A stretch of DNA of 21,308 nucleotides from a virus (IMGVR_UViG_3300030090_005192:1-21308); one strand, 5' to 3'; shown: positions 2,596 through 21,308, counted from the first letter of the stretch. Made by a program: numbers and translations. Notes: a model not told the origin generated them from the letters alone.

Positions 2596-2627
2596 AGCTA
2601 ATTATGGTATTCTTCTCTCGCTATAGC

Positions 2628-2657: not shown

Positions 2658-2683
2658 TACAAGGAAAGCTTGAAAAATGGACG

Positions 2684-2744: not shown

Positions 2745-2756
2745 ACGAGAGAAAGG

Positions 2757-2785
2757 TTGACTATGAAAGCCAACAATATTATTAT
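2757..2785 (+). promoter_or_regulatory. near-consensus promoter for packaging/head operon
   Basis: TTGACT (2757-2762), a 17-bp spacer and TATTAT (2780-2785) match the sigma70 consensus at 10 of 12 positions. The expected start near 2792 leaves a very short leader holding AGGAGG (2795-2800) before the ATG at 2809. It is the only clear promoter for the rightward operon in the window. Confidence 0.7.
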
Positions 2786-2808
2786 ATTGTAAGTAGGAGG
2801 GCAGGTCA

Positions 2809-3243
2809 ATGGCATTTAATGATAAAGAAAAAGCCCAAATAAAGGCTCATTTTTTAAAAGAATACGATAAAACGAAGACAGTTTCCACGGCAATAAGTGG
2901 ATTACCTATTCACAGGAAGACACTTTATAATTGGTTTAGAGATGATCCTGACTTTAAGCAGGAATTTGATGATGCAAAACTAGCAATTGGAGAAAGTTTA
3001 GAGAGTAAAGCTTTTACTTTGATAGATAAAATGATAGAAAAAGGTGATTATGGGAAGCCTGTTTTATTAATAACCATGCTAAATGCCCACTTACCTGAAA
3101 GATATAGACAGCAAGAAAATGCAGGTGAGGATTCTAGACAGCTTATTTCAGAGTTTAGAAGGATGGCAAAGGGCAAAAAGGCTAAAAAACCTAAGGTAGT
3201 TAAGGAAGCAGAGGACATAATTAATGACTCAGACAGCAAATGA
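2809..3243 (+). CDS. terS: terminase small subunit (probable)
   Basis: The 144-aa protein lies directly before the large terminase, the standard position of the DNA-recognition subunit of the packaging motor. Residues about 20-50 look like a helix-turn-helix: a helix, a GLP turn, then HRKTLYNWF and DDPDFKQEFDDA, the pattern seen in many phage small terminases. Residues about 55-95 form helices suitable for oligomerisation, and the C-terminus is Lys-rich (KGKKAKKPK) and probably contacts DNA or the large subunit. The start has AGGAGG 8 nt upstream. Its 3' end overlaps the large terminase by 20 nt. The expected DNA target would be a site in the nearby control region. Assignment rests on motif style and synteny. 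Confidence 0.8.
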   Translation: MAFNDKEKAQIKAHFLKEYDKTKTVSTAISGLPIHRKTLYNWFRDDPDFKQEFDDAKLAIGESLESKAFTLIDKMIEKGDYGKPVLLITMLNAHLPERYRQQENAGEDSRQLISEFRRMAKGKKAKKPKVVKEAEDIINDSDSK

Positions 3244-4564
3244 GTTAACAGATTTCCTTTATGAGAAGGTAGGCTTTGAACCTACCGACGAACAAAGGCA
3301 AATCTTAGACTCAGATAAAAGATTTACACTAGTAGCAGGTGGAGAACAAGCAGGAAAAAGCATGATAGCTAGTAAATTTCTGCTTAGAAAGATTTTTGAA
3401 ACAGAAGAAAAAGGCCTGTATTGGTTAGTTGCTGCCGACTATGGTAGAACTAGAGCTGAATTTGAATACTTAATAGAAGATTTTGGTAAGCTAAATCTTT
3501 TAAAGAAGGCATCTAAAAGAGTAGATCCTGGCAGAATAGAACTTGCCGATGGTACTGTGATAGAAACCAAGTCAGCAAAAGACCCTCGTACCCTAGCTAT
3601 GAGAGCACCCGATGGAATTATTGGTTGTGAGGCTAGTCAGCTAGACTTAGAAAGTTATTACAGAATAAGAGGTAGATGTGCACCTAAAGGAGCATGGATG
3701 TTTCTAGCAGGAACATTTGAAGGTAGCCTTGGTTGGTACCCTTCGTTATTTCAATCATGGAAGTATGGAGATAAAGACGAAAAATCTTTTTCCCTGCCCT
3801 CTTATACAAATAAACATTTATACCCGGGAGGCAAAAATGATCCTGAAATACAAAAACTTAAAAATGAGGCTAGTGATGATTTCTTTATGGAAAGGATTGA
3901 AGGTATTCCTTCGCCACCTACGGGAATCGTCTTCCAAGAATTCCGAAGTGACAGACATATATCGGAAGAAGCTAAGTATATTCCAAGCGAACCCGTACAC
4001 TTGTGGATCGACCCGGGGTATGCAGGCGGCTATGCTATCGAAGCGATACAGATCGTCAATGACCAAGTTAGGATTATCGACGAGGTTTACGAAAAATCCC
4101 TCATTACAGAAGAAATGATTAATATTTGTCAGAATAGAGAGTGGTGGAATGATGTACAGTTCGGAGTAATTGATGTAGCAGGGTATCAGCATCAGGCTAT
4201 GGCAGCTCCTGCAGAAGTTTGGTTAAATGAAACAGGATTATTTCTTGATTCTGAGAAAGTTAAGATTAATGATGGTACAGAAAAGTTAAAATCTATGTTA
4301 AAACTTGCTCCTAATGGAGAGCCAAGACTAATAATTAACCCACAATGTAAGGGAATATTGTCAGAATTTGGAGCAGCACCTAATCCGTTTAATGGACAGA
4401 CACTTGTTTACAAATGGAAAACAGATCGTGATGGAAATATAGTTGGCAATCAGCCCGAAGATAAGTATAATCATGGTGTCAAAGCCGTAATTTATGGTTT
4501 AATTAATCATTTTGGTTACGCACATATAGAAAATAGAACATCAATCCGTGTAAGGAGATGGTAA
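3224..4564 (+). CDS. terL: terminase large subunit
   Basis: ATP-driven DNA translocase and headful/cos nuclease of the packaging motor (446 aa, a usual length). The ATPase half shows Walker A GGEQAGKS (residues 39-46), a Walker B-like strand IIGCE (132-136, catalytic E136, with Cys where Asp is usual) and the coupling motif LAGTFEG (161-167). The nuclease half (RNase H fold) shows WIDPG with D263, VIDVAG with D317, and a third motif around D413 with YNHGVKA (415-421), where a Lys (K420) sits at the usual 'NHxxDA' Asp. The gene overlaps the small subunit by 20 nt and shares one base with the portal start. A stretch at about 3901-4200, around the first nuclease motif, is richer in GC than the flanks. 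Confidence 0.93.
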   Translation: MTQTANELTDFLYEKVGFEPTDEQRQILDSDKRFTLVAGGEQAGKSMIASKFLLRKIFETEEKGLYWLVAADYGRTRAEFEYLIEDFGKLNLLKKASKRVDPGRIELADGTVIETKSAKDPRTLAMRAPDGIIGCEASQLDLESYYRIRGRCAPKGAWMFLAGTFEGSLGWYPSLFQSWKYGDKDEKSFSLPSYTNKHLYPGGKNDPEIQKLKNEASDDFFMERIEGIPSPPTGIVFQEFRSDRHISEEAKYIPSEPVHLWIDPGYAGGYAIEAIQIVNDQVRIIDEVYEKSLITEEMINICQNREWWNDVQFGVIDVAGYQHQAMAAPAEVWLNETGLFLDSEKVKINDGTEKLKSMLKLAPNGEPRLIINPQCKGILSEFGAAPNPFNGQTLVYKWKTDRDGNIVGNQPEDKYNHGVKAVIYGLINHFGYAHIENRTSIRVRRW

Positions 4565-6405
4565 TGGCAAAAGCTAGTTATAAACCTGAAAGAATTATAG
4601 ATAAAGTAGAGAGTCATTACGAAGCAACAGAGCCACTTCGTAATAGAATGGACAAAGATTACTCTCTTTATAGACTAGATCCCTATGATGCGGGTGATGG
4701 ATATCAATCATATACATCAAATGAACCCTCAACCTATGCCGATAAGATAATATCTTTTGTTGTTGGATCTGAAATGGTAGCTAGAATTCCTAATGTTTCT
4801 GAAAAAGAAGACATTAGAAAATCAAATAATATGAAAGAAAGATTTTTTCTTGGTGCATTAAGAAGTGCTGATGAAAGAATTAAAAAAGCATCTATGCCTT
4901 CAATTAAAAACCAACTAGGTTGGTATATATGTATGAGAGGATGGTATGCAGGCAGAGCATTACTTGTTAAAGATGACAATGAAAAGACTTATGTAGATAT
5001 AACTCCTTGGGATCCAATGCACACTTATTGGAGTGGAGGAGCAGACGGGCTTGATTGGGCTTGTTATAAAATTAAAAAATCTAAAGAACTAGTAGAAAGT
5101 CAATATAACATTAAACTTCCAAGAAACGAACAGTACGATGACGAAGATTGGATAGATGTATATGATTATTACGATAAAGAAATGAATACAGTTGTTCTTT
5201 CTAATGGAAGAGTAGCTAAAAAACCTACACCACACGGAGCAAATAGGGTGCCTGTATTTTTGGGGCCTGTAGGGTCAGCTCCTATGATACAGGCACTTAA
5301 TGATATGACTCCTATTGATGACACTATTGCTGATTATGGCGAAAGTATATTTAAACATAATAGAGAAAATTATGAAAAAAATAATCAAATGATGTCTATT
5401 ATGTTAGAGCTAACAGCTAGAGCAAGACGACAAGGATTAAAAATAAAATCAAGAGATGGAATGAAGACATTAGATGAAGACCCTTATAAAGAAGGAACTG
5501 AAATATCTCTTGCACAGGGAGAAGATGTAGAGCCACTAGGCATGATGGAAGTAGCTAAAGAAACAGGGGCTTTCATGGGACTAGTGTCGGGAGAAACCCA
5601 AAGAGGATCTATTCCTCATACACTTTATGGAGATATACAATTTCAATTATCAGGATTTGCAATCAATACCCTTAGACAAGGTATTGATTCTGTAATCTCT
5701 CCTAGAATAGAATCTCTTGAAAATGCTTACACAACTATATGTATGCTCTTAACAGATCAATATCTAACTGAATCGTTTAATGTTATGGAACTTTCAGGAC
5801 AAGATATGAACAGACAATATTTTTCTCAAAAAATTACTCCTACAGCTATTAAAGATGCGGGAGATATGGAGATAACATTTGTAGGACAACTTCCTCAAGA
5901 CGATATGACAAAGATGAGCATGGCTCAAATAGCAAGAGAAGGAGAAGCACCTTTGTTGCCTGATATATTTATTAGAGATAAGATTCTTGGACTACAAGAT
6001 ACAGATCAAATTGATGATGCTATTAATGAACAGTTGGCTGAAAAAGCTTTACCCGAAGCACAGCTTTATACATTAATGAAATCAGCCGAAGAAAGAGGTA
6101 GACCTGATCTAGCTCAATTATATTTCGGAGAATTAACAACTATTATTAATCAAAAGTTGCAGATGCAAATACAATCAATGCAACAACTACAACAAGTGGC
6201 TATGCCACAACAAGCTCAACAAGGAATGGGAGGCCCCCCAACAGCAGACCCAAGGGTTATGCCTAATGCTATGACGGGAGCACCTCCTCCCGCACCTACT
6301 CCTCAAGCAGGAGGGTTTGTTCCTGAAGGAACACCAAGGCCAGGGGCACAAAGTCCTGAAACAAGAGCTGATTTATTACGACAATTCGGCCCCACAGGAG
6401 TTTAA
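4564..6405 (+). CDS. portal protein
   Basis: The 613-aa protein follows the large terminase, the usual place of the dodecameric portal ring that forms the head vertex and DNA channel. The start is set at 4564 because AAGGAG (4552-4557) is 6 nt upstream; an ATG at 4558 touches the binding site and would add only two residues. The fold is typical: N-terminal helices (ADKIISFVVG, about residues 60-70), a mixed wing/clip (about 120-250), and a long C-terminal helical part including the segment around GDIQFQLSGFAINTLRQ (about 355-375). The last 80 residues are Gln-, Met- and Pro-rich (QQLQQ, PPPAPTP) and probably flexible. No direct motif proves the assignment; length, composition and synteny do. 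Confidence 0.82.
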   Translation: MAKASYKPERIIDKVESHYEATEPLRNRMDKDYSLYRLDPYDAGDGYQSYTSNEPSTYADKIISFVVGSEMVARIPNVSEKEDIRKSNNMKERFFLGALRSADERIKKASMPSIKNQLGWYICMRGWYAGRALLVKDDNEKTYVDITPWDPMHTYWSGGADGLDWACYKIKKSKELVESQYNIKLPRNEQYDDEDWIDVYDYYDKEMNTVVLSNGRVAKKPTPHGANRVPVFLGPVGSAPMIQALNDMTPIDDTIADYGESIFKHNRENYEKNNQMMSIMLELTARARRQGLKIKSRDGMKTLDEDPYKEGTEISLAQGEDVEPLGMMEVAKETGAFMGLVSGETQRGSIPHTLYGDIQFQLSGFAINTLRQGIDSVISPRIESLENAYTTICMLLTDQYLTESFNVMELSGQDMNRQYFSQKITPTAIKDAGDMEITFVGQLPQDDMTKMSMAQIAREGEAPLLPDIFIRDKILGLQDTDQIDDAINEQLAEKALPEAQLYTLMKSAEERGRPDLAQLYFGELTTIINQKLQMQIQSMQQLQQVAMPQQAQQGMGGPPTADPRVMPNAMTGAPPPAPTPQAGGFVPEGTPRPGAQSPETRADLLRQFGPTGV

Positions 6406-6407
6406 TT

Positions 6408-9311
6408 ATGGCAGATCCACAAATAACTATTATTGATTCAGGTTTAAGAGATTTAAATGAAAGAGTTATTCCTATTGGTCTTGAAGGAGATTATAGTGGT
6501 AGCCAATATGCAGGGGTCTATAATCAACTTGATGGTATAAGAAAAGAATTATTGAATTCAGGATTATTAACTGAAGGATTTGAAAAGTACATGAAAAGTG
6601 ATGTGTACGGCGTTGATACTTTTAATTTATTTAATAAACCTAAAGGGGTTAAAGGTAGTGTTCTTACAGGAGATCGAGTTGAAGTATGGAACGAAGCACA
6701 ACTTAGTAATATTACTGAAAATCAAATTCCTGTTTTTAAAATGCAAAACGGAAAATGGCAATTAACAGATATTAATATAGGAGAACCTGAACAACAAAAC
6801 AAATCTGATGTGTTACTTAGCATGGATATTATGGCTAACCCTGATGCAGTAAAAGAATATAAAGCTAGAAAACAAATATTTAATCCACAAATTACAACAA
6901 AAACAGGGCAAGTACTTGATGCTTCACAACTTCCCCGTGCTCCTCAAACTCCACAACAAGCAAGAATAGGTCGGAAAATTACTCCTACAGCAGCAACTAC
7001 TGTAGAAGATTGGATGGAACTAGGTTTTACAGAAGCAGAGGCAGAAGAGAGAGTAAGACAAGGTACTCCTTATGTTGATGCAAATGTGGGATCTTTAGCA
7101 GACACACCTCTTTCAGGAGAATGGGATGACTTTGCTACTGTTACACCAAGTGATTTAAGACCTAAGTATTATAGTCAAGATGTTAAAGATGCAACAGGAA
7201 ATGTTACAAGACAAGCGGGCCCCGTAGGTACTATGGGTGGAGCTTGGGCTCCTCAAACTGTAGAAGAATTAAAAGAACAAGGTTACTCAGAAGAGGAAGC
7301 CTTAGCATTTCAACAAGAATCATTAGCTCAAGCTAAAAAAATGTTTCCACAACAATTTCCTTTAGATATGACAGTAAAAGAAGCTCAAGCTCAAAAACAA
7401 GCACAAATGCAAGGAATGGCAGGATCGGGAATGCCAAATGTAGGAGCTATGGGAGCAGGTGCATTAGGAATGAATCCTGATTTGCAATCTTTGCAATGGG
7501 CAGGATTACCTACTTATGATTATGCAGGAGCATTGCCTTATGCTTTGCCAAGTGCAGGTATTCCTTTAATAGGAGATGTATACCAAGATGTTATTCCTAA
7601 ATATAAACAAGCTTATGATATGGCTCAGTTATTAGGAGTAGTTCAAGCAGATCCACAAGCATTAGCAGGACAAACAGGAACTATAGGATTTCAACAATTT
7701 ATGCAAAGTAATCCTGATGTAAGAGGATTACTTGGTTCAGGATTAGATGCAATAGAATCTGTAAAAGGAAAAATAAGTTCAGGATTATTACCTTCTGCTT
7801 TATCTGATAATGAACAATCTATATTTTATAATTATATTCAAGGAAGCCAAGGTAATCCATTAGCAGGAGTTCAACAAGAACTTGCTTTAAGACAAAGCTT
7901 AACAGATTATTTACCCGAAGCAGTAAGAGGAGCAGCTAGAGCAGGTCTTGCTAGACAATATCAAGAAACCTTAGCTACAAATCCATTAGATTTATTTGGA
8001 GGACAAGCATTAAGTAGATTTAGTCCTTATCAAACAACTGATCCACTTGCTTTTACTCCGACTCCTCAAGGAGGAACTCCACCTATGCCACCGATGTCAA
8101 CAAATACAATGAGGGCACCTATGGCATCGCCTATGGATTTGCCTCCTCAACCACCATCTCCTACTACAAATACAAGTGAACAAGTAACTGTGGCTGCAGC
8201 ATCAACAGCTCCGCCACAAGCACAACAAACTCCTGACGATATACAAACATACAATGCTGAAGTTTTTAAAAGCATAGCACCTGCAGCTCCAACTGCAGAG
8301 CAATATGCTAAAAGCCCTGCCTCTTATCCCGATTATGTTTTATCTAATACAGGAAATGTAATTCCTAAAGAAGGAAGAGATGCTCAATATTGGGAACAAA
8401 GAGCAGTTGTAGATGACCCTGCAGCAGCAGGATTAGTTCCAAGATATGATCCTTATGATGAAAATAAAATAATAGGATGGGACAGATTAGGAGTTGATCC
8501 TGAAGGTATTCAAAAGAAAGTACAGACTTGGGTAGATAGTGAAGGGAATATGCAAAACAGAGTAGTAGGTGGGGAAGAAGCAAGACTAATGAAGAAAAGT
8601 GGATTTATGGATCCCAAAGGAATTATCCCTTCCTTAGGAGTACCTGCAATTGCAGCAGCAACCGAAGGAAGTAGTTATATGCAGGGAGAGAATCCACAAG
8701 GAGCAGGAGTTAATATACCAGATTATAAAATGGTAAATGAAGATTATCTTAGATGGTTAAATCAAGGAGGATACCGATCATTAGTTAATGTAGATCCTAC
8801 ACAAAGCCTTAATGAAGGTATTGGACTAGGATCTCCTACTAGAATACAAGGTACAATAGCTAATTATCTTCCACTAACATTAGGAAATCAAGTAGATAAA
8901 AATTATTATAACTTTTTAACAGGAAGTTATTTTCCTAAGATTGGTATAAGTGCAGGATATGATCCTCAAATGATAGCAGATCAGACTCAACAAAAGATTG
9001 GTATAAGTGCAGGATACGATCCTCAAATGATAGCAGATAAAGCACTTACTTTAGCAAATGCTTCTCCTCCTACTTATATTCCTGTAGATTATTCAACAAA
9101 TACTATAATTCCACAACAACAATTAATAAAAGGATTTAATATGGCTCCGTTTACTCCTAGTGAAGGAATTGGACTAGGGTCTCCACCAATACCATTAGGA
9201 GGAGGATTGTTACAAACTCAAGGTATATTAGACAAAATGCTTACTACAAATCAAGGAGCTGCATTTGGACAACAATTATATCCTTACTTAAACCCATCAT
9301 TAGTGAGGTAA
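6408..9311 (+). CDS. large Pro/Gln-rich hypothetical virion-region protein (967 aa)
   Basis: Not recognised. The gene starts 2 nt after the portal stop with GGAG about 8 nt upstream, and is followed 2 nt later by the 114-aa gene, so it belongs to the head operon. The N-terminal 130 residues look globular. Two similar helical motifs follow: TVEDWMELGFTEAEAEERV (about 198-216) and TVEELKEQGYSEEEALAF (about 284-301). Next come Gln/Ala/Gly-rich stretches (about 310-350) and a Pro-rich linker (about 550-610). Near the C-terminus KIGISAGYDPQMIAD is repeated in tandem (844-858 and 863-877), and the octamer EGIGLGSP occurs twice (about 803 and 919). No enzyme motif, signal peptide or clear membrane segment is visible. 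It may be a structural or ejected internal protein, or a partner of the giant protein. Confidence 0.85.
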   Translation: MADPQITIIDSGLRDLNERVIPIGLEGDYSGSQYAGVYNQLDGIRKELLNSGLLTEGFEKYMKSDVYGVDTFNLFNKPKGVKGSVLTGDRVEVWNEAQLSNITENQIPVFKMQNGKWQLTDINIGEPEQQNKSDVLLSMDIMANPDAVKEYKARKQIFNPQITTKTGQVLDASQLPRAPQTPQQARIGRKITPTAATTVEDWMELGFTEAEAEERVRQGTPYVDANVGSLADTPLSGEWDDFATVTPSDLRPKYYSQDVKDATGNVTRQAGPVGTMGGAWAPQTVEELKEQGYSEEEALAFQQESLAQAKKMFPQQFPLDMTVKEAQAQKQAQMQGMAGSGMPNVGAMGAGALGMNPDLQSLQWAGLPTYDYAGALPYALPSAGIPLIGDVYQDVIPKYKQAYDMAQLLGVVQADPQALAGQTGTIGFQQFMQSNPDVRGLLGSGLDAIESVKGKISSGLLPSALSDNEQSIFYNYIQGSQGNPLAGVQQELALRQSLTDYLPEAVRGAARAGLARQYQETLATNPLDLFGGQALSRFSPYQTTDPLAFTPTPQGGTPPMPPMSTNTMRAPMASPMDLPPQPPSPTTNTSEQVTVAAASTAPPQAQQTPDDIQTYNAEVFKSIAPAAPTAEQYAKSPASYPDYVLSNTGNVIPKEGRDAQYWEQRAVVDDPAAAGLVPRYDPYDENKIIGWDRLGVDPEGIQKKVQTWVDSEGNMQNRVVGGEEARLMKKSGFMDPKGIIPSLGVPAIAAATEGSSYMQGENPQGAGVNIPDYKMVNEDYLRWLNQGGYRSLVNVDPTQSLNEGIGLGSPTRIQGTIANYLPLTLGNQVDKNYYNFLTGSYFPKIGISAGYDPQMIADQTQQKIGISAGYDPQMIADKALTLANASPPTYIPVDYSTNTIIPQQQLIKGFNMAPFTPSEGIGLGSPPIPLGGGLLQTQGILDKMLTTNQGAAFGQQLYPYLNPSLVR
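8937..9038 (+). repeat. tandem duplication, 57-bp period
   Basis: A 45-nt block at 8937-8981 recurs at 8994-9038 with a single T/C difference (silent, TAT/TAC), separated by 12 nt. It encodes the 15-residue repeat KIGISAGYDPQMIAD inside the 967-aa protein. The near identity shows a recent duplication. Confidence 0.95.
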
Positions 9312-9313: not shown

Positions 9314-9658
9314 ATGGCAACAAATCCTTTTCAAAGTTATATATCAAATGAATTTTTAGAACAGCAACCTCGTGCTACTTATTTAAGTTCGCCTTTTGCT
9401 CAACAATGGCAACAAAGAAGTACAGGAGTGACAGATCCATCTAGAAGAAGATTTTATCAATCTTCTTTTCAAGATGTTTATAATGATTATCTTGCTCAGC
9501 TTGGAACACAAGCAAGAGCAGGGCAAGTTCCTAGCATGAGATTTAGAGATTATCTTGAAAACGATCCGTTTACAGAAAGATATTCAAGATTAACTCCTAT
9601 GCAAAAAGGTTTATATAGTGGAGATTTTAACCCTAGAACAAGGATGATATATTATTAA
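9314..9658 (+). CDS. small Arg/Tyr-rich hypothetical protein (114 aa)
   Basis: Not recognised. It starts 2 nt after the 967-aa gene with GAGGT about 5 nt upstream, and its TAA shares a base with the ATG of the giant gene (TAATG), so giant-protein translation is probably coupled to it. The protein is basic and rich in Arg, Gln, Phe and Tyr, with the repeated flavour 'RRRFYQSSF' and 'MRFRDYLENDPF' and an aromatic C-terminus (RTRMIYY). It has no cysteine or membrane segment. Its conserved-looking place between the two large genes suggests a virion accessory, adaptor or chaperone for the giant protein, but this is inference from position only. Confidence 0.75.
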   Translation: MATNPFQSYISNEFLEQQPRATYLSSPFAQQWQQRSTGVTDPSRRRFYQSSFQDVYNDYLAQLGTQARAGQVPSMRFRDYLENDPFTERYSRLTPMQKGLYSGDFNPRTRMIYY

Positions 9659-12600
9659 TGCAATGGAATCCTTTTGATACTAGTCAATATATACCTGTTC
9701 AGCCTGAAACTTTACCAAAGCCACAGGCTGATCCTAATTTGGTGCAACAAGCATCTCCTCAACAACAATTAACATTACCTCCTCCTGCTCCGCCTACATT
9801 ACCACCTCCCCCTCCAATGTCGCAAGCTTTGGTTACACAACCTAAACAACAAAGTGCTTTAGGTGCTTTGGGTAGTTGGGCAATAACACCTTTAGTTCCT
9901 GAGTCAGCAGCAGATTTTTTGCCAGGCCCCTTAGGATCAGTAGGAAGATTTATAACTCGTATGACATCTCCTGCTGAAATAGCATTTACTATCGGAACAT
10001 TAGGATGGGGTGCTGCAGCAGGTGCGGGAATAAGAGGAGCTACTACTGTTGGACAGTTGGCAAAAAGCGGAGTTCCTAAGTTAGCACAAAAACCTTTGAA
10101 TTGGACAGGAAGAGCAACTGCAAATTTGGTTGAACCTGTATACATGGGAACTCCAAATGAAATAGCAACAATAACTAAAGCAGCAGCAACAAGAGGCACA
10201 ACTTTTGGTGCAGTTAAAACTTCACGACAAAACATAGTACCAAGAACAGGTAAAGAATTAGCTTTAATAGCAGGAGCACAGTTTGGCTTTGAACAAACTG
10301 CAGAACCTATGGCTGAAGCTTTTGGAACTGTAGGAGGAGCAATTGGAACAACTGCCGCAGGCTTGGCAGGTGGAGTAATTGCAGCTCTTGGAGGACAGGC
10401 AGCAGCTCGTGCTTTTAAACAAGGGTTAGTAAAAAACAAAAATGTTCCTGATGTACGATTAACTCCTGAAGAGGAACTTAAACTTGTTAATGATAATTTA
10501 TCTCTTCCGAACAAAGCTACAATACACGATATTTATACAGTTGATATTCTTGATACTCCTGAAAAACTTATTACTCAAAAACTTCAATTAGATAAAAATG
10601 GGCAATATATAGACCCTGAACTTAAAGAAGACAGTATACAAAAAATTGAATCAAAAACTAAAGATCATTCTATTGAAGGAGGAGTTAAAATGACGGCACA
10701 AGACTATGCTGATTTTAGTGAATCCCTTTGGGGAAGGATGGTCGCAGGAAGTCCTCAAGTATTTCAAGAAGCTTTTAATAGAGTACAATCTTATCTAACT
10801 CCAAGTGCAGCAGCAAGAAATTTACCCGAACAGTTTCTTGTTACACTAAAACAATTATGGGGGAAAATAGACCGATCAGTAAGAGCAGATGCAGATTATT
10901 TAAAAGCTTCTACTGAATATCATGAAAAAGTATATGGGAAACAAGATGCTTACGGGTTTGTTGTTCCTAATTCAGGGGGCCCTATTACTGATGATTTTAT
11001 TAAAGCAGTACAAGATTATAATAAAACTGCTGAAGGAAAAAAGAATCCTATTACAAATCCTGCCCGATGGACTCATCATAGAATAGAAGAAGCTATAACA
11101 GGGTTTGCTCAAATTAAAGAAAAAGGCAAAATGAAAAATGCTGATTGGGGTATATTTGAAAAGCTAGGCTATCTAACAGACGAAATGAAAGATATAGCAA
11201 ACAGGTGGAACATACACAAAAAATACATGGAAGATTATGGAACAGCCATGGGTTACAAAATAGATTTAAAAGAAAAGTTTACTTTAGATAACTTTGAAGA
11301 ACTTACTTTAAAATATGCTTGGAGTCCTAACAAAGATGCTTTGTTCAATTTACTTCCTGAAGGAATTACTCCTAAACAATGGGATGATATGTTTGTTAGA
11401 GGATATATTCCAAGAGCAATGATAGAAGTAGATCCTGTTACTCTTGAAAGAAAAAGCATAGGATTTGGGCACGAAAGTCAGGATGGGAGATTTCATTTTA
11501 CAGAACTCTCAGGTCAAACAAATAAATTTGAGGGGCCTAGAATATTTGGCTCTGCCGAAGAAGCAGCATCAGAAGGATTTAAATTTTTAGATTTAGCTGA
11601 AACTAAACAAGCATGGACAGGCAATAGATATAAAAGAATTATGATGGATAGTGCTGCAAAATTTCTTCAAAGAGAAAGTACTGCAGAAATTGGAAGGCCT
11701 AGTAAATTTCCGTTTGTATTTAAAGACACCTCATTTGGCAGACAAAGACAACAATTGTGGAAAGCACAAATAACAAATAAAAGAATTAGCCAAGAATTTT
11801 TGGATGAATATGGTGAGGATATTATTATTGAAGGCGAAGGTTTTAGAGAAAATCTTACACAATATTATGATGAAAACAAAAGAATGGAACAACTAACTTC
11901 GTCTGATAAAAATAACTACGATAAGAAATTTAACAAAACTCAAGCTAAAAAAATAATCGATAACGAACTAGCTGAGATTACTGAAAAACTTGCAGCCACA
12001 CAATATGATCCTTTTCTTCTTACCAAGCTAACCGAATACCAAGAATGGACAGATGTTTTACAAAGATTTTCAGGATGGGCAAATTCTCAAAAGACAGGAG
12101 CTATAGTATCTTTTGACACATTTAAATCAGCCGATATAAAGTGGCTTCAAGAAAACATTGATAAGTTTGCAGAATTAGAACCATTAAGAGAACTTATTAT
12201 TCCAACAGGAACAAATGAATTAAAAGAAGTAGCCTTTAGTTTTTTTGAAGAAATGTCTAGTAATTGGTGGAAGTGGGAACCTTTAACTGCGTTTAAAGGT
12301 CAACCTACAAAAGAAATAAGAGCTACTGCTTTTATGAAAATAAAAGATGCCTTGGATCAAGCTTATGGTTTTTCAAGTCCAAGAGCTTTTACTTTCCAAG
12401 TTAGAATTAATCAGCTACAAAGATTGTTTGGAGAAGACTTTAGTCGTATGCCCGTATTAAAAAAACAAACTATTATAAACGATATAACCAATTTCAGAAA
12501 TATGGATATTGAAACTAGAAACCAACTAGAAGAAGAATTTTTAGATCAGTTTTTAGAAAGCTCAGAAATAGCAATTAAAGAATACAATACCTTACTTGAT

Positions 12601-15600
12601 GATACTGCAAAGTTAGAATTAGATACTGTTGAAAAAAGAATATCTAAGTTATTGCCTAAAGCTAAAGAGCAAACAGAAGGAAGACCATGGGCTCCCGAAG
12701 GAGGGCCCGTTGGTGCTAGATGGTTAACAGTAGACAGCCCTTTATATAATGCAATTGTAAAAGATAAAACAGGTACATTTAACCAAGGACAACCTGCTGC
12801 TTGGTACGATCCTTTAAACAGACAGATTATTTTAAACGAATCAAGAATAAATGATTTTTGGGCTGAGTATCAAGAAACAGGAGTCTTTAGTCCTAACTCT
12901 TTGCAGTTAATGGATGTAGTTAAAACTAAAAGCGAATTTATTGATTTAGTTTTATATCACGAAATTCAACATATTAATAATGCAATAGGTATAAAAAACG
13001 GAATAGCCGATCCTTTGTTAAAAGGAGAAAGCCAATTTCAAAATGAATTAAGAATGACTCATCAAGCCATAAAGCAATTAGAAGATTTAGGATTTAGAGG
13101 AAAAACAAAAGATACTATTAAAGATCCTGATTGGGGAAACAGAATAATAACTAAAGATTTTCTAGAAGAAACTATTGCTAATAGTAATAAAATATATGTG
13201 CATTGGGATAAGAATCTTGTAGCAAAAGCTAGAGAGGCTTATGTACAAGAGGAACTTCCGAAGAAATTACGGGAAATGTCTGAAAGTGAAGGAAATAAAA
13301 AAACAACAAAGTGGAGAACTTTTGTTGACCCTGTACCTTGGGGAAGAGAAGCTAGCAGATCTTATGGCAAACAACAATACGAAAATAAAATAGTAGATAT
13401 TAAAATAGAAAGCTTACCTGCAACAGATAATGTTTTGTATATAAGTGGTGGAAGAAATTACGCAAGAGCAGCAGATAATTTTCACAAATATTATGCTCCT
13501 GATAGTCAGGAACAACGATTGCAAATTAAAAGAGAATATGTAAAGTCAAGAACTCCTCAACAGACATCTAGGGAAAAATTAAATATGGATGAAGCTTTGG
13601 TAGCTTATATTAAAAAGTTTGGAAAACCAAAATTAATAGTAACAGGTGACGCAACAGGAGCAGATTATTATATAAAACAATTAGCAAGAAAATATAAAAT
13701 TGATGTTAAAGCTCTTGAACCTGATGGGATTGAAAGAGGGCAAACTTTAAAACAACGAGAACAAGGAATACGAGGAAAAGATACTGTTGCTTCTTGGCAT
13801 GATATAAATTATTGGTCAAGGCAAACATCAAAACAACCACTAATGAGGATATCAAGAGAAAATGGTATGTCTAACGGAAAGCTTTTAACATGGACAGAAG
13901 ACAGAGTAAGACGATTTGCTAAAACACATTTTGGATTGTTAGATACCGATCCTGCTGATGTTCAAATAGAAAAAATGGGACAAATGAGAAAAAAAATAAT
14001 GGAAGAGTGGGGGCAGGGATATTATTATTGGACAGGTAAAATGAGGCAAGGAGTTGATTATAAAGGGAACCCTAGAGAAGAATATGATATTAGAAGAAAT
14101 CCTACCCCAAATATAGATGAAATGGATAAATGGCACATGATTTCAGTTAGCATGGCAGGCCCCCGAAGAAATATTCAAGCCATAGAAAACTATAATCCAA
14201 CTCATGCTTTAACATTTGATGACGGAGGTTCGGGCACTAGATCTGCCAAAAGAGCTTTAAATGAAAGAGGTATTGAAACATTTGAATTTGCAAAAGATAG
14301 ACAAGCAAGTTTAAAAAGATTGGAAGTAGATCCTAATAAAGAATATGATATAACCCAATTAACAAAAGAACAAATAGAAGAGTTAAGAAAAGCTACTCCT
14401 GAAGAAGCAGCAGCAAAAGGGTTAGTCTTAGAACAAGTTCCTTTAAAACGACAACAAATAATTGAATCTGCTTATGATGTAAGTAGTGGAAACCAAGACA
14501 ATTTTGGTCATCAATTTAGTGCATTAGCTGCAAGATTTGAAGAAGGTGATAATAAAGGATTGGTATTAGAAGAAGTATTTCAAACACATATTAAAGATCC
14601 TTTAAATGTTTTGAAATTAGAAAAGCCAAAACCTCGTACAGGAACAGCAAGGCAAAGAATACAACAAGTATTAAATTCAAATGTATTTAAACAAACAAAA
14701 GGAATGAGCCCTGAAGTAATACATAGACGATACATTGCCGCAGGAGAAGTATATCCTTATGCAAGAATAATTCTACCTTCTGAAATATCTGAACAACAAA
14801 TAGTTTCTCCGTCTTTGATTGACCAAACAGAATATAATTGGGTACAAAAAGATTTAGAAAACGGAATCCTTGTAACTCAAGATTTAACATCAGATCAAGT
14901 ACAAAAACTATATCCCGAATATTACAAACAACTAGAACCCAAGCCTACTGATAATGAAACTGTTACTATGTATTTTAATTACGAACCTTTAAACAGTGCT
15001 TATGATAAATTGTGGGATGAATGGGCTAAACAAAATGAAAAATTAATAGAAGAGTTAAATGAGAAAACTAAAGGTAAAAAAATCATTGATACTAAGATGA
15101 GTGAAAGTGCATTTGCTAAAGATCCTAGAATTGTAAATAGCCAAGCTAAATCTTTGGCAAGAATTTTAACAGATAGATACGGAACTACTAGGCAAGGAGT
15201 AAGGGGAGAAAGATATAATGTAGGAAAGAATTTCCCGATCATAACTCCTCAACAGGTAGATAGTGACAAGAATGTATTATGGATATTTGGAGATAATGTA
15301 GCAACTGCAAATGATCCTAAAAGTTTTCCAGGTAGGGGCGGATTAGCTAAACCAATGAGAGCTCCTGAAAAAAGAGAAAAAGATAATGCTTTTGGGATTA
15401 GAACTAAATGGAGACCTGATACAAAAGCAGGAGCTTATTTTGAAGGAGCAGCTAAAGGAAGTAGGGAGTATGAAGAAATAGTGCAGATGATTGACGAGGA
15501 TATACAAAGAATTCCTAGAGGAAGAACAATTAAAATGCCTTGGGATCCTGTTAAAAAACAATATGCAATTGGAACAGGAATGGCAAAATTGCAAGAAAAA

Positions 15601-18600
15601 TCTCCCGATGTATTTGAATATTTACAAACTGCTTTAGCTGAACTAGAGCACGGAGGGCTTACAGAATCCTTTATAAGAGCAAATCCCAATAAGATATTTG
15701 TTATCGGAGATAATGTAGCACAAGATAATTTTTATCCGTTTGCAGAACCAATTAGATATAGTGAAAAAATAGACTTGGAAGATCCTGAAAAATATATTCT
15801 CATGTATGACAATAAAGATATTGTATGGGTTTCTACAGGAGAAATGAGAGGGATAGATATAGAATCTCAAATGCCTTATAAGGTAGATAAATTTGGCAAT
15901 CTAGTTTACAAAGATATGAGTCCTAAAATGAAAGGAGTGGAGTCTGCTTATTCAACTAAAACAGATTATAAAGCAGGTGATTTAAAAGCTTTAGATTATG
16001 ATTCTAAAACAAAAAAAATGACACCAAGGTTTAACCAAATTCCTTATGAAAGAGATCCTAAAACAGGAGAGCCAACAAATAGAATAGCTAAGCCTACACA
16101 AGTGCGATATGTGCAGGATTATTCTATGCAAGAATTAAAACAATTAGCACAACAAAGAAAAAAAGGCTATGAAGTTAGAATTAAACAGTTAGAAGATATG
16201 CTAAAGCATAAAAAAGGACAACCTATTAAGCCTCCTGAAGAAGTAAGAGCAATATATGACGAAATAAAAGCAACAAGAGAACAACAAAAAAATAGTTATA
16301 ATATGTTATTAGATGTTAATTATGTTAAAAAAGGAGAGGAAGGTTATTATCTTGCTGCGGATGTAAGAGATCTTCCTAATGTCATAGCAATTCCTATACG
16401 ATGGTCAGCAACTAACAGGGCAGGGAATGAGGCTCTTGGTGAAAATGCTTTCTTTAAAGACCCTGCAAAAGGCGAAGTATCTAAACCTGCAAAAAGTAGA
16501 ATAGATAAAGCATTTGAAGATCTTGAGGAACTAAAGAAAAAAATGCCTAATGCAGAAATAATTATTGACGAAGACTCTACTTATGATCCGATAAGATGGT
16601 TGTCCCGACCTAATATAGGAGGAGATAAAAACAAGATGGTAAGAGGGCAAAAAACCCTTGATAAAAAACAAGTTAAAATGAGAAGAATGAGGAATCCTGA
16701 AGCTAAAGAAACAATGGGATATATACAAAGAGAATTAGATAGATTGTTTCCTGAAAACATGGAAGAAGGTAAATTAAAAGCACACATAGAAAAGGCTATC
16801 CCTGATAATATGCCTAATTTAAAAATATTACCTGAGTTTAAAAAAGACATGACTAATATGCAGTATATAAAAGAATTAGAAAAATGGTTTAAAGATATTC
16901 CTCATGATAAAGATATTGTTTTGCCTGTTAAAGAAAATCCTTATCAATATACAACATCAGATATAGGACTGCACATTACAGGACAAAAATATATTATCAA
17001 TACTCCATGGGCAGAAGATACTGCAAGAATTCCTGTTAACCAAAGACTTGAAAATATGTTTAGAATCGGAGGAAGCTTAGATAAAAAAAGATGGGAACTT
17101 GCCCCTGAACCTGAAAAGGCATTAAAAGGAACTTTAGAATATAGACAGGGTAAAGAATTAAATAAATTACTAGGTAAAAGATTTGAAATAGATTCTGTTA
17201 TTAATAATATTAAAACTAGAAAGAATCCTAATTTGATTACAGAAGATGACTATCAATTCAGATCTGTTGATGCTAGACCAACAGAGTCTTTGTCTTTCGA
17301 GGATCAAGAGATTGAAAATTCTTTAATAAGTTGGAATAAAGATAATTATCACGGATATCAAAAGAAAAACTTTGTTATAACAGATCAAATAAAAACTGCT
17401 CTTAAAGACGGGTATGAAAGAATAGACAAAGAAAGAGCAAGGTTTAGCGAAATCAATGACGAAAATAGTATATTTAATGACATGGGACAAATCAAGAAAA
17501 ATTATACAAGAGAAGGTGAGTTTACATTTAGTGGTAGTCCTTTTATGGCAAATAAATTTTTTGCTTATTTAGACGATCCTATTGCAAAAGCAGAAGCAGA
17601 TAAGATGGTAAGAGATTTTGACAAGATGCAAGAATTTGTAAGTGTTCCTAAGATAGTAGACAAACTAAGACAGCTAAATGAAGTGCAAAGAATAGTAGCA
17701 TTAGGGGGAGATGGTAGTGTATTTGGAATACAGTTAATACAAATGTGGTACTACAAACCTAAGATTGCTGCTAAAACTACAAGAGTATGGACAAAGTATT
17801 TTGTCCAAGCATTACAGAACCCTGAAGCAGTAGAAGCTTATCAAAGAAGTAGATTAGAAGATCCCACAATAAAAAAGATTTACCGAGATATGCCATTAGT
17901 AAACAGGAGCACAACTACTCCTAATGAATCAACGGCTGCCTTGCAAGAAACGGGAATATTAAAAAAGATTGGAAGAACTCGTGTAGGTATGGCTTTTAAA
18001 TTAGCTTTAGAAGCTGCTTTAGATTCCGCAGGAGATGAGTTAGCTGTTGCTTTACATCCTCAAATTAAAAGAATTAAAAGATTACAAATAGCAACTCCTG
18101 TAAGAGGAGAGTTGCAACAAGTTGATAGGGGAGGAGGATATTTTTCTGAAAAAGGATATGGTGCAAAGCAATCAGTTCCTCAAGATATAGTAGATGAATC
18201 TTTGATTAGACCTTTATCAGGGGCAATTTCAGATGAAACTAATTTGTCATTTGTTAAAAGCGAATTGTCAAAAATGGGATATGGAGATAGAGAATACTTA
18301 GCAGAATATATAACAGTATTACAAGACCCAAGATTTCAACAATGGGCAAGACAAGTTAGTTTATACGGAGATCAAAGTAATAGAATTTTAAAAATAATAA
18401 GAAATAGTAATGTAGAACAAATGGTAAAAGGAATTCACGGAGGAGAACCAAGAAGCAATCCTTTATTTATATTGAGAGAAACTTTAGGAAATAACTATAA
18501 TTTTACAGTTGATTTAGATCCGTATTCCGTAAAAGAAGTAAGTGAATTTATTAATTACATGAGAGGCATCACATCATCTGCTGAACAAGGAATACCTGCT

Positions 18601-19986
18601 AGACAAAGAATATGGGAATCAATATTCTTGTTAGCACCAAGATACAGAAGAGCTATTGCAGGTATGTATTCAAAATTATTTAGTAAAGATAAATTAACAA
18701 GACAAGAAGCAAGAAAAGGTATAGTAAGATTTTACGGAGGTTTAGGGCTAACAGTTATGAGTTTGCAAATGATGAAGTCATTAATAGAAGGAGATAGTGC
18801 TGAACAAATGACAGGTAAAATCCAAGACTTACTTGACCCTTCATCAGGAAGCTTTATGTTGTTTGATGTTGAAGGACAAAAAGTGGGGCCAGGGTCAAAG
18901 ATTTTATCAGACATGAAAATAGCTGCAAAAGCAGCTAACTATTTTTGGAAAGAAGCAAGTGGAGAAGAGCTAGATGATTGGGAAGATTTTACTGCTATAG
19001 ATAGAGATAACCCTACATTAAAATGGGTTAGAGCCCAACTAGCAGCAGCTCCATCTGAAGGAATAGACTTTCTTTTAGGTAGTGATTTTATAGGAGAACC
19101 TGCATATAGAGGAGATAATAGTGTAGAAAAATTACAGAATACTGCACGACCAATAGCACAAAATGCTGTTCCTTTATGGATATGGTCTGCTTTAATGGAA
19201 AACTCAGGTACATTAGATTGGCAATCTCAAGTTAAAGGAAGAGTAACTAGAGGTGCAGGAGAGTTTGTAGGATTAAGAGCATTTCCTCAAGGAGCATCTA
19301 CTATATTAAGAGAAGCATCTTGGGATTATTATGCTACAAATTATGACAAACTAGAACCTTTTCAAAAAGAATTGTTACAAAAATTAACTAACGATCATTT
19401 AGCACAAATTCAAAAAGAACAATTAGAAAGAGGAACAAGTGACTTTGCTATATACTATGCAAACTTAAAAAGAATAGATCACGAGTTTCACGATTCTTTA
19501 AAAGCTTATATGACTATATACCCTGACAGCCCCGAAGGTAATAGAGATTTATTGTTTAGATATGGCAAGTTAAAAGATTTTAGAAGAGGACAAAGAAAAG
19601 AAGTGGGAATAGATATAGAATTTGAAGAGCATGATGTTAATCAAAAAGATCCTATTAAAAGAGCTTTGGCACAATACTATTCTTTATTTGATGATCCTGA
19701 AGTAAAAGTTCCTAATACTAATACTATTAATTGGGAAAAATGGGATAACAAATATGATGCTTTAATGGCAACTTTAACTGCAGAACAGCAATTAGCTATT
19801 ATGAGAAATACGGATAGGTTACCTTTACCTAGAGATTTCTTAGAAAGAATCTCTAGAATAGGTACAGGAAAAGAATATACTAGATTAATGCAAGCTCAAG
19901 AATTAAGAGAAGATTATTTATCTGCTATGGGAAGACCTGATTTGGCAGAAGTTTACAAACAATATTTCTTTATGCTTGAGGATTGA
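9658..19986 (+). CDS. giant multidomain phage polyvalent protein (3442 aa)
   Basis: A single uninterrupted gene of 10.3 kb. Regions in order: a Pro/Gln-rich head (1-60); two glycine-zipper, membrane-like stretches (107-127 and 222-250); a helical region with GYIPRAMIE (582-590); a zincin motif HEIQH (1101-1105) in LVLYHEIQHINN; a SLOG domain of the DUF2493 type with SGGRNY (1263-1268), TGDATGAD (1329-1336), AGPRRN (1500-1505) and GGSGT (1524-1528); an FGDN-type domain (about 1873-1995, FGDN 1877-1880, IGTGMA 1971-1976); a second, interrupted FGDN-like copy (GDN 2017-2019, continuing about 2240-2290); a charged coiled-coil stretch (about 2150-2215); and a C-terminal region (about 2980-3180) with a hydrophobic helix and a PTLKWVRAQLAAAPSEG motif like large phage inner-virion proteins. 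Established knowledge: such 'polyvalent proteins' are packaged with phage DNA and delivered into the host. The start shares its A with the previous stop; no good binding site is seen. Confidence 0.9.
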   Translation: MQWNPFDTSQYIPVQPETLPKPQADPNLVQQASPQQQLTLPPPAPPTLPPPPPMSQALVTQPKQQSALGALGSWAITPLVPESAADFLPGPLGSVGRFITRMTSPAEIAFTIGTLGWGAAAGAGIRGATTVGQLAKSGVPKLAQKPLNWTGRATANLVEPVYMGTPNEIATITKAAATRGTTFGAVKTSRQNIVPRTGKELALIAGAQFGFEQTAEPMAEAFGTVGGAIGTTAAGLAGGVIAALGGQAAARAFKQGLVKNKNVPDVRLTPEEELKLVNDNLSLPNKATIHDIYTVDILDTPEKLITQKLQLDKNGQYIDPELKEDSIQKIESKTKDHSIEGGVKMTAQDYADFSESLWGRMVAGSPQVFQEAFNRVQSYLTPSAAARNLPEQFLVTLKQLWGKIDRSVRADADYLKASTEYHEKVYGKQDAYGFVVPNSGGPITDDFIKAVQDYNKTAEGKKNPITNPARWTHHRIEEAITGFAQIKEKGKMKNADWGIFEKLGYLTDEMKDIANRWNIHKKYMEDYGTAMGYKIDLKEKFTLDNFEELTLKYAWSPNKDALFNLLPEGITPKQWDDMFVRGYIPRAMIEVDPVTLERKSIGFGHESQDGRFHFTELSGQTNKFEGPRIFGSAEEAASEGFKFLDLAETKQAWTGNRYKRIMMDSAAKFLQRESTAEIGRPSKFPFVFKDTSFGRQRQQLWKAQITNKRISQEFLDEYGEDIIIEGEGFRENLTQYYDENKRMEQLTSSDKNNYDKKFNKTQAKKIIDNELAEITEKLAATQYDPFLLTKLTEYQEWTDVLQRFSGWANSQKTGAIVSFDTFKSADIKWLQENIDKFAELEPLRELIIPTGTNELKEVAFSFFEEMSSNWWKWEPLTAFKGQPTKEIRATAFMKIKDALDQAYGFSSPRAFTFQVRINQLQRLFGEDFSRMPVLKKQTIINDITNFRNMDIETRNQLEEEFLDQFLESSEIAIKEYNTLLDDTAKLELDTVEKRISKLLPKAKEQTEGRPWAPEGGPVGARWLTVDSPLYNAIVKDKTGTFNQGQPAAWYDPLNRQIILNESRINDFWAEYQETGVFSPNSLQLMDVVKTKSEFIDLVLYHEIQHINNAIGIKNGIADPLLKGESQFQNELRMTHQAIKQLEDLGFRGKTKDTIKDPDWGNRIITKDFLEETIANSNKIYVHWDKNLVAKAREAYVQEELPKKLREMSESEGNKKTTKWRTFVDPVPWGREASRSYGKQQYENKIVDIKIESLPATDNVLYISGGRNYARAADNFHKYYAPDSQEQRLQIKREYVKSRTPQQTSREKLNMDEALVAYIKKFGKPKLIVTGDATGADYYIKQLARKYKIDVKALEPDGIERGQTLKQREQGIRGKDTVASWHDINYWSRQTSKQPLMRISRENGMSNGKLLTWTEDRVRRFAKTHFGLLDTDPADVQIEKMGQMRKKIMEEWGQGYYYWTGKMRQGVDYKGNPREEYDIRRNPTPNIDEMDKWHMISVSMAGPRRNIQAIENYNPTHALTFDDGGSGTRSAKRALNERGIETFEFAKDRQASLKRLEVDPNKEYDITQLTKEQIEELRKATPEEAAAKGLVLEQVPLKRQQIIESAYDVSSGNQDNFGHQFSALAARFEEGDNKGLVLEEVFQTHIKDPLNVLKLEKPKPRTGTARQRIQQVLNSNVFKQTKGMSPEVIHRRYIAAGEVYPYARIILPSEISEQQIVSPSLIDQTEYNWVQKDLENGILVTQDLTSDQVQKLYPEYYKQLEPKPTDNETVTMYFNYEPLNSAYDKLWDEWAKQNEKLIEELNEKTKGKKIIDTKMSESAFAKDPRIVNSQAKSLARILTDRYGTTRQGVRGERYNVGKNFPIITPQQVDSDKNVLWIFGDNVATANDPKSFPGRGGLAKPMRAPEKREKDNAFGIRTKWRPDTKAGAYFEGAAKGSREYEEIVQMIDEDIQRIPRGRTIKMPWDPVKKQYAIGTGMAKLQEKSPDVFEYLQTALAELEHGGLTESFIRANPNKIFVIGDNVAQDNFYPFAEPIRYSEKIDLEDPEKYILMYDNKDIVWVSTGEMRGIDIESQMPYKVDKFGNLVYKDMSPKMKGVESAYSTKTDYKAGDLKALDYDSKTKKMTPRFNQIPYERDPKTGEPTNRIAKPTQVRYVQDYSMQELKQLAQQRKKGYEVRIKQLEDMLKHKKGQPIKPPEEVRAIYDEIKATREQQKNSYNMLLDVNYVKKGEEGYYLAADVRDLPNVIAIPIRWSATNRAGNEALGENAFFKDPAKGEVSKPAKSRIDKAFEDLEELKKKMPNAEIIIDEDSTYDPIRWLSRPNIGGDKNKMVRGQKTLDKKQVKMRRMRNPEAKETMGYIQRELDRLFPENMEEGKLKAHIEKAIPDNMPNLKILPEFKKDMTNMQYIKELEKWFKDIPHDKDIVLPVKENPYQYTTSDIGLHITGQKYIINTPWAEDTARIPVNQRLENMFRIGGSLDKKRWELAPEPEKALKGTLEYRQGKELNKLLGKRFEIDSVINNIKTRKNPNLITEDDYQFRSVDARPTESLSFEDQEIENSLISWNKDNYHGYQKKNFVITDQIKTALKDGYERIDKERARFSEINDENSIFNDMGQIKKNYTREGEFTFSGSPFMANKFFAYLDDPIAKAEADKMVRDFDKMQEFVSVPKIVDKLRQLNEVQRIVALGGDGSVFGIQLIQMWYYKPKIAAKTTRVWTKYFVQALQNPEAVEAYQRSRLEDPTIKKIYRDMPLVNRSTTTPNESTAALQETGILKKIGRTRVGMAFKLALEAALDSAGDELAVALHPQIKRIKRLQIATPVRGELQQVDRGGGYFSEKGYGAKQSVPQDIVDESLIRPLSGAISDETNLSFVKSELSKMGYGDREYLAEYITVLQDPRFQQWARQVSLYGDQSNRILKIIRNSNVEQMVKGIHGGEPRSNPLFILRETLGNNYNFTVDLDPYSVKEVSEFINYMRGITSSAEQGIPARQRIWESIFLLAPRYRRAIAGMYSKLFSKDKLTRQEARKGIVRFYGGLGLTVMSLQMMKSLIEGDSAEQMTGKIQDLLDPSSGSFMLFDVEGQKVGPGSKILSDMKIAAKAANYFWKEASGEELDDWEDFTAIDRDNPTLKWVRAQLAAAPSEGIDFLLGSDFIGEPAYRGDNSVEKLQNTARPIAQNAVPLWIWSALMENSGTLDWQSQVKGRVTRGAGEFVGLRAFPQGASTILREASWDYYATNYDKLEPFQKELLQKLTNDHLAQIQKEQLERGTSDFAIYYANLKRIDHEFHDSLKAYMTIYPDSPEGNRDLLFRYGKLKDFRRGQRKEVGIDIEFEEHDVNQKDPIKRALAQYYSLFDDPEVKVPNTNTINWEKWDNKYDALMATLTAEQQLAIMRNTDRLPLPRDFLERISRIGTGKEYTRLMQAQELREDYLSAMGRPDLAEVYKQYFFMLED

Positions 19987-20027: not shown

Positions 20028-20780
20028 ATGATAAATGAAAATGAAAATACACAACCTGAGTTAAACTTAACCACAGAAGAGTCTTCAGCTCCTGTAGCAG
20101 AACCACAGGCAGAGCCTGTAGCAGAGCCACAGGAAAGCCAAGATGCAGTAGCTGAACCACAAGAAACTACTGCTACTGAAACTACTGAAGTTTCTACTGA
20201 CCAAGCAGTAAGTCAATACCCGGGTAGTATTACTGAAACTAGTGACGATAATCCTATTGTTCAAAAACAGCTAGAAGAAACACAACAAAGATTAACGCAA
20301 GTAGAACAGCAGAATATACAGAATCAAATCTTGTATGAAACTGAAGCTTACAAGCAACAATTGTTTAATCAAGGCTACACAAATGAACAAGTGACTGCTG
20401 CGGCACAACAACATTATCAACAAAGAATTCAACAGCATCAGCAAGAACAAAGTTATCAAAATAGTTTACAGTACAAAGAAGGACAATTTAAGGCTTCTTT
20501 ACAAATAGGTAAAAAGTATAATGTAGATCCCGAAGTATTATTAAAATACAACAGCCCTCAAGAAATGGAACAAGCTGCAAGACATCAGTCAGAAGTTAGA
20601 GCACTCAAAGAGGAAAATGCTCGGCTTAAAAAACAGCAAGTGCCTGCACAAAGCTTTGACAGTAGTTCGGCTCCCGCAGATGCTAGTTCTAGTGAGGAAA
20701 GATTATTGGATCTTTACAATTCAGGAGTTCGCAATCCTGAAACCGAAGCAGCAGCTCGAAGGGCTGCAGGCCTCGGATAA
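20028..20780 (+). CDS. capsid scaffolding protein (probable)
   Basis: The 250-aa protein lies directly upstream of the major capsid-like gene, where head scaffolds are found. The composition fits: a very acidic Pro/Glu-rich N-terminus with repeated AEPQ/VAEPQ units (about residues 20-50), then long Gln- and Glu-rich helices (about 78-160) and a leucine-zipper-like segment (RALKEENARLKKQ, about 190-202), a Ser/Ala linker, and a charged C-terminal helix that could contact the coat protein. There are no cysteines. The start has the strong binding site AAGGAGGAG ending 2 nt before the ATG. The scaffold directs assembly of the procapsid shell and normally leaves afterwards. The call is based on composition and position. 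Confidence 0.8.
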   Translation: MINENENTQPELNLTTEESSAPVAEPQAEPVAEPQESQDAVAEPQETTATETTEVSTDQAVSQYPGSITETSDDNPIVQKQLEETQQRLTQVEQQNIQNQILYETEAYKQQLFNQGYTNEQVTAAAQQHYQQRIQQHQQEQSYQNSLQYKEGQFKASLQIGKKYNVDPEVLLKYNSPQEMEQAARHQSEVRALKEENARLKKQQVPAQSFDSSSAPADASSSEERLLDLYNSGVRNPETEAAARRAAGLG

Positions 20781-20812: not shown

Positions 20813-21308
20813 ATGGCACAGACAGCGACAACAGGTAATCTAGAAAATGCGAGTAAGATAATTATCGCAGCAGCTAGGTATACCGAAGAACATAATGCCC
20901 CTGCTATGGCTTTGATTGAGCAATTTACTTTGCCAAAAGGAGCTAAACAGGTAACAGTACCTAAAGTAGGGCAAATGACAGTATCTGATTTAACAGATGG
21001 TCAAGACATTGTTGACGAAGAAGAGATCGGAATGACAACTGTTGATCTTACTGCAAGTGAAGTAGGAGCAAAAGTTATCTTAACCGATAAACTAGTTCGT
21101 GAACAACAAAACAATGTATTCACAATAATTGGTAAACAGTTAGGTGATGCAATGGCAAGAAAGAAAGATACAGATGTTCACTCATTGTATAGTTCTTTAA
21201 ATGGTGGTACCACTCTTGGTGCTGCAACTAAATTTATGAAAGCAAGTAATGTACAGGGAGCAATCACTTATGCAAAAGCTAATAAATTTGGTAGCCAAAT
21301 TTACATTT
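20813..21308 (+). CDS. major capsid protein, N-terminal part (cut by window edge)
   Basis: Reading begins at the ATG at 20813 with AAAAAGGAG ending 8 nt upstream, and 165 codons are present before the right edge without a stop. The protein begins MAQTATTGNLENASKI and shows a pattern typical of HK97-fold coat proteins: a Leu-rich N-terminal arm, a strand around QVTVPKVGQMTV (about 45-56), an acidic DEEE loop (about 69-72), GAKVILTDKLV (about 84-94) and then a helix ending GDAMARKKDTD (about 109-119). It follows the scaffold-like gene. The sub-family could not be named from this fragment. The remaining part lies beyond the window. Confidence 0.8.
   Translation, partial: MAQTATTGNLENASKIIIAAARYTEEHNAPAMALIEQFTLPKGAKQVTVPKVGQMTVSDLTDGQDIVDEEEIGMTTVDLTASEVGAKVILTDKLVREQQNNVFTIIGKQLGDAMARKKDTDVHSLYSSLNGGTTLGAATKFMKASNVQGAITYAKANKFGSQIYI

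Follow-up and report, generated by a model that had tools for sequence, protein, structure and literature searches.

Which parts of a very large phage protein belong to its lineage as a whole, and which are carried by it as cargo? The question is raised by IMGVR_UViG_3300030090_005192:1-21308, a complete virus record in IMG/VR, itself a fragment, whose full 21,308 bases (the window) were analysed. An uninterrupted open reading frame (ORF) in this marine phage DNA encodes a giant protein of 3442 amino acids (aa) and lies in the order small terminase, large terminase, portal, 967-aa gene, 114-aa gene, giant, scaffold and major capsid protein (MCP). The first-pass annotation of the window had placed the gene between portal and scaffold, and this placement is intact: two genes separate it from portal and it directly precedes scaffold. 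Beyond that annotation, profile comparison with relatives indicates that the ends are shared and that novelty is confined to the middle. The giant is probably a polyvalent protein of the inner virion that leaves the head together with the DNA; its delivery ends would be constant, and the cargo between them, directed against nucleotide- or ADP-ribose (ADPr)-based defence, would be exchangeable.

A terminase search of viral contigs provided 80 relatives, 67–95% identical bar one short fragment at 60%, and further contig stretches supplied complete homologues of the giant. Proteins at the same genomic place range from 1490 to 1890 aa: in six relatives whose terminase is 93–95% identical to that of the window they measure 1814–1886 aa, and the shortest, of 1490–1512 aa, are found in more distant relatives. 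By profile comparison, residues 1 to ∼671 of the window protein correspond to the first ∼685 residues of the homologues and residues ∼2622–3442, a stretch of ∼820, to their last ∼680. Hhalign returned 98.5% for aa 1–300 and 98.3% for aa 200–720 against core columns 342–685, with a reversed control at 0.4%. An early idea that homology ends at aa ∼240 was dropped, as deeper profiles carry the N-terminal match to aa ∼671. Within the C-terminal part, aa ∼2958–3442 show 35–48% identity in close relatives and an hhalign match of 99.9% to a second group. This terminus had been described as inner-virion-like: the window protein yields no library match in support of that label, and what stands is its conservation, in relatives, at the end of the corresponding gene. 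Summed, the two ends amount to ∼1490 residues, near the length of the shortest homologues. The ∼1950-aa block between them (aa ∼672–2621) has no match within the relatives' homologues in the profile comparison and occupies the place of ∼450 residues.

A metagenomic contig whose complete cargo recurs in no close relative invites the suspicion of a chimeric ORF created by assembly. This is scarcely credible, because core and cargo are alike in base composition (third-position GC 0.17 and 0.18, respectively) and because an independent contig, L118, carries the same N-terminal part followed by a similar cargo, 22–41% identical to that of the window; moreover, the frame is single and intact. L118, with a terminase 91% identical, is cut by the contig end and displays a HEIAH motif along with the SLOG, FSAL and DUF7831 domains described below. 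The comparison of base composition between core and cargo also gives no signal of recent horizontal gain.

The cargo brings together at least two unrelated effector-type domains in one phage-encoded chain, in a terminase–portal gene context: a zincin, SLOG, FSAL and DUF7831 twice. Two segments of the centre, aa 672–1039 and 2311–2621, gave no match in the analysis. The zincin motif noted earlier holds up, as HEIQH, an HExxH motif, is accompanied by a Glu ∼25 residues downstream, although activity is putative; HExxH arose in 45 of 2000 shuffles (∼2%). The segment aligns with that of L212, a giant ORF with both zincin and FSAL (hhalign 87%, 34% identity over 76 columns), and BLAST gives an E of only 0.04. 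The glycine-zipper hydrophobic stretches of the first-pass annotation were overstated: the protein contains one borderline, small-residue stretch and no GxxxGxxxG.

The SLOG call is borne out by a profile that leaves out the window and draws on stand-alone YspA proteins of phages; it scores 24.2 bits on the window (E=3e-7), against a maximum of 4.3 among 200 shuffled copies. The match falls into two pieces, adjoining in the profile (26–64, then 65–119) and separated in the protein (aa 1315–1353 and 1489–1545); the four motifs GGR, GxxxGAD, AGxxRN and GGxGT are all present, in order, in the alignment, and where the model is confident the predicted succession of strands and helices agrees with a five-stranded Rossmannoid. 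Because the domain is split, Pfam YAcAr scores weakly and misses its cut-off on the window (12.5 bits versus 28.2, E=0.13); on L118 it attains 23.5 bits (E=5e-5), also below cut-off. By motif and profile the domain is a SLOG of the YspA/YAcAr type, not a Pfam-grade family member. A viral scan with this SLOG recovered L144 only. As a separate observation, a relative with a terminase 91% identical encodes a YspA-type SLOG as a protein of its own, on the opposite strand (L020:1541-1930, minus strand).

Between SLOG and DUF7831 lies a fourth cargo domain that had been missed, recognized by its match to PHROG 9995 and named FSAL here after its FSAL/FSAM motif. Elsewhere it occurs mainly in giant phage ORFs (2100–4100 residues) and in many phiKZ-like phages. 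In L118 DUF7831 is inserted within FSAL; in the window it comes after it. The phiKZ gene looks under-annotated: the FSAL homologue at L219:3001-3336 (phiKZ 79900-80235) has ∼112 residues, annotated PHIKZ082.1 covers only 80128-80244, and several phiKZ-like records bear no annotated gene at this homologue. A part of a 176-kb viral contig (L001:2-20150) contains four successive long ORFs of 855–2555 residues, one with FSAL and one with HELLH.

The two FGDN domains reported previously are both real and belong to Pfam DUF7831. The first is intact, matching at aa 1861–1991 (E=5.1e-21, 75.2 bits against a cut-off of 27) with the family-invariant pattern FGDN...G..GG.A...R...NA.G..TK..P...GTG, and its AlphaFold2 model has a mean pLDDT of 82. 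The second, detected with a profile from 80 viral members, is degenerate and split. Foldseek of the first model matches proteins already annotated as DUF7831 in phages and giant viruses of eukaryotes, which places the family in the latter too. Triosephosphate isomerase and similar candidates from a PDB sequence search (E≥0.2) were dismissed as chance. In the papers searched, DUF7831 is not mentioned by name.

The company kept by these domains in other viruses is informative as to function. A scan of viruses for DUF7831 returned 80 loci: a small stand-alone protein in 60 and a domain within ORFs of 652–4114 residues (mostly 1100–4100) in the other 20. The first-pass annotation had considered the combination undescribed; it is not a one-off, as L118 has it and three further loci hold SLOG with DUF7831, and what survives of the claim is the new architecture. 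In L133 a cpYpsA SLOG precedes DUF7831 and in L143 it follows, and the chain of L135 runs M78 zincin, DprA-type SLOG, DUF7831 and DUF4326. A giant ORF at L140:1468-11232 bears, next to one another, a 2OG-Fe(II) oxygenase, DUF7831 and NADAR. Four of the long DUF7831 ORFs match an internal-virion-protein PHROG, and ART-PolyVal is present too. YspA SLOGs occur within ∼6 kb of stand-alone DUF7831 genes at 8 of 60 loci; for terminase loci the corresponding figure is 1 of 80 (Fisher p=0.005). The counter-defence role proposed before, NAD-related or directed at nucleotide signals, would draw its support from this co-occurrence of DUF7831 with SLOG, NADAR, DUF4326 and ART.

Some of the same loci are also compatible with an ejected inner-virion protein whose cargo has nucleic acid as its target, for instance by shielding or repairing the entering genome or its transcripts, and in which SLOG behaves like DprA. 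A DprA-type SLOG PHROG is found in three DUF7831 giants, Pfam DprA in L135 and exonuclease PHROGs in L129; DprA is the most probable match listed in PDB for the Foldseek search of the SLOG/FSAL model (0.77), which is not significant and is not taken as proof, and a SLOG profile search of PDB reports it at E=0.16. As the window SLOG is of the YspA/YAcAr type by profile, and the company of NADAR, DUF4326 and ART points to ADPr chemistry, this explanation appears unlikely.

Several observations weigh against the favoured reading of a packaged, ejected carrier of anti-defence cargo. Three of the eight loci with SLOG near DUF7831 are near-identical. With a mean pLDDT of 60 the SLOG/FSAL model is poor and its Foldseek search against PDB gives no significant match, and the confident DUF7831 model finds no solved structure there at E≤0.001. 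YspA-type SLOGs have no clear LOG-enzyme catalytic signature and may bind only. Finally, the window protein taken alone matches no internal-virion or LPD family. A mainly structural or ejection protein, with cargo domains that have decayed or are mere spacers, would suit the degenerate, split second DUF7831 and the long inserts in SLOG and FSAL. Such a role is improbable, somewhat more so than an action on nucleic acid: the first DUF7831 retains every invariant residue, SLOG its four motifs and the zincin its HExxH, and the 1950-aa centre is not needed as a spacer, since relatives do without it.

The case for packaging is built on gene context and on likeness to known ejected proteins. The start codon of the giant ORF and the stop codon of the 114-aa gene before it share one base (TAATG), and the gene order is the same in relatives with contigs long enough, some with one extra gene before the 114-aa gene. 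As in T7-type short-tailed phages, whose internal virion or ejection proteins are of the gp14–16 type, three successive genes of very unequal sizes extend from portal to scaffold, and past the capsid gene relative L228 has no ORF long enough for a tape measure; the tail type is putative, a search of tail proteins against PDB having yielded none. In contrast to T7-like proteins, the window displays no sequence match to an internal-virion family. The N4-type virion RNA polymerase, known from phage N4, exemplifies a packaged and ejected class. Like it, the giant is a very large protein of the head cluster, and N4-type polymerase domains (aa 2520–3331) share a 3833-aa ORF with DUF7831 (aa 1713–1826) and two HExxH motifs at L150:853-12351; the window protein differs in having no RNA polymerase match in Pfam or PHROG. 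The giant could instead be made and used within the infected cell and never packaged, as phage proteins such as SLOG and NADAR are frequently early and free-standing according to the available text of PMC9503650. Its head-gene position, the translational overlap with the preceding gene, the conserved ends, and the internal-virion and virion-polymerase modules of other DUF7831 giants make this most improbable.

The protein is a trait of this lineage and not of the wider group. By capsid, the isolated phages closest to the window are pelagiphages, HTVC111P (29% identity) among them, and the largest genes in their portal–scaffold interval encode ∼330 and 609 residues. Searches with tblastn of the giant N-terminus, C-terminus and portal against isolated phages gave no match, and a viral scan with the entire giant protein gave one. 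A genome scan with the terminase detected no relative and, therefore, no prophage or host is assigned.

The polyvalent reading of the first-pass annotation is well supported by size, mixed domains, head-gene position, the zincin and the recurrence of its domains in other giant proteins of virion type. In the survey of polyvalent proteins, zincin processing and injection are proposed for the class (Iyer et al. 2017, PMC5512222), and the phage members resemble the giant in being very large, with mixed enzymatic domains and a zincin metallopeptidase, and in lying among virion genes. Of the domains catalogued for them (MPTase, LPD and others), the window protein has a candidate in the zincin, by motif and homology only. 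LPD38 (E=6e-12) occurs in the positional homologue of L059 and L061 but not in the window protein, and hhalign of LPD38 to the window C-terminus provided no link. That survey mentions neither SLOG nor NADAR, whereas the giant has SLOG; relative to it, the comparison of fixed ends and exchanged centre is the contribution of the present analysis. In a survey of NAD–ADPr systems in viruses, phage SLOG, NADAR, Macro and DUF4326 are proposed to counter ADPr signals (Iyer et al. 2022, PMC9503650). As far as the available text of this survey and of a jumbo-phage survey (PMC7824862) goes, the YspA/YAcAr-type SLOG is shared with the window, DUF7831 and FSAL are not named, and SLOG, NADAR or DUF4326 from their repertoire share a chain with DUF7831 in other giant ORFs. 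SLOG, NADAR and Macro typically stand alone or in small fusions in the accessible portions of PMC9503650, while the window SLOG is embedded in a 3442-aa virion-type protein. Given the absence of SLOG from PMC5512222 and this typically stand-alone occurrence, the presence of both SLOG and DUF7831 in a giant protein of virion type makes a new architecture out of two known themes.

Under the favoured reading, the N-terminal ∼670 and C-terminal ∼820 residues would serve as a lineage-wide packaging and delivery scaffold and the exchangeable centre as cargo. Packaging would be followed by ejection and processing, in which the zincin might cleave the giant itself or have host proteins as substrates. 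Nucleotide or ADPr derivatives would be the ligands or substrates of SLOG, FSAL and DUF7831, and their binding or breakdown could blunt host defence or NAD+ loss as infection starts. A broader proposition, more tentative, is that the fixed-ends ejection protein is a general vehicle, the phage equivalent of polymorphic toxins, with cargo swapped among close relatives, and that DUF7831 and FSAL are unrecognized nucleotide- or ADPr-handling domains so carried here, in N4-polymerase-type and in other giant phage proteins. If true, close relatives with the same delivery ends, with or without 1950 residues of defence-related cargo, constitute a natural experiment in which packaging, processing and counter-defence are open to comparison. 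DUF7831 would be a candidate new component on the virus side of nucleotide and NAD+ immunity, in phages as well as in giant viruses of eukaryotes.

Features of the window and of the giant protein. Portal and scaffold are named by position and conservation only, large terminase and MCP by annotated tblastn matches.
Feature	Residues (aa)	Coordinates	Strand	Basis or remark
Probable terminase small subunit		2809..3243	+	Position; Sf6_terminase E=0.016
Terminase large subunit		3224..4564	+	tblastn match to annotated phages
Portal protein		4558..6405	+	Position and conservation
967-aa gene, candidate second inner-virion protein		6408..9311	+	Variable in relatives
114-aa gene, candidate third inner-virion protein		9314..9658	+	Directly before giant in this lineage
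Giant polyvalent protein gene (probable)	3442	9658..19986	+	Uninterrupted ORF, ATG start
Conserved N-terminal part	1–∼671	9658..11670	+	hhalign to positional homologues
Sole hydrophobic stretch above threshold	225–246	10330..10395	+	Small-residue rich; mean Kyte–Doolittle 1.48
Cargo	∼672–2621	11671..17520	+	Absent in close relatives except L118
Zincin-type metallopeptidase segment (putative)	∼1047–1140; HEIQH 1101–1105 (12958-12972)	12796..13077	+	Motif and homology
SLOG domain, YspA/YAcAr type	1255–1548	13420..14301	+	Motifs GGRNY, GDATGAD, AGPRRN, GGSGT
∼135-aa insert within SLOG	1354–1488	13717..14121	+	Low model confidence
FSAL domain (PHROG 9995)	1616–1842, ∼110-aa interruption	14503..15183	+	PHROG E=3.8e-5; BLAST to L001/L209/L210/L212
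First FGDN domain, Pfam DUF7831	1861–1997	15238..15648	+	Keeps all family-invariant residues
Second DUF7831, degenerate	2002–2023 and 2221–2291	15661..16530	+	Split by ∼200 aa, collinear
Conserved C-terminal part	2622–3442	17521..19983	+	Inner-virion-like by position
Scaffold protein		20028..20780	+	By position
MCP		20813..21307	+	Cut by contig end; tblastn match to annotated phages

Two further observations concern the neighbouring genes. In L030:5161-7035 and L079:787-2666 the portal ORF is in two pieces, possibly as a result of frameshifts or assembly errors. The 967-aa gene shows less than 50% identity or no BLAST match among close relatives in which terminase and portal are 80–95% identical, and within it, at window positions 8937-9038, there are two 45-nucleotide direct repeats, 98% alike, each encoding KIGISAGYDPQMIAD.

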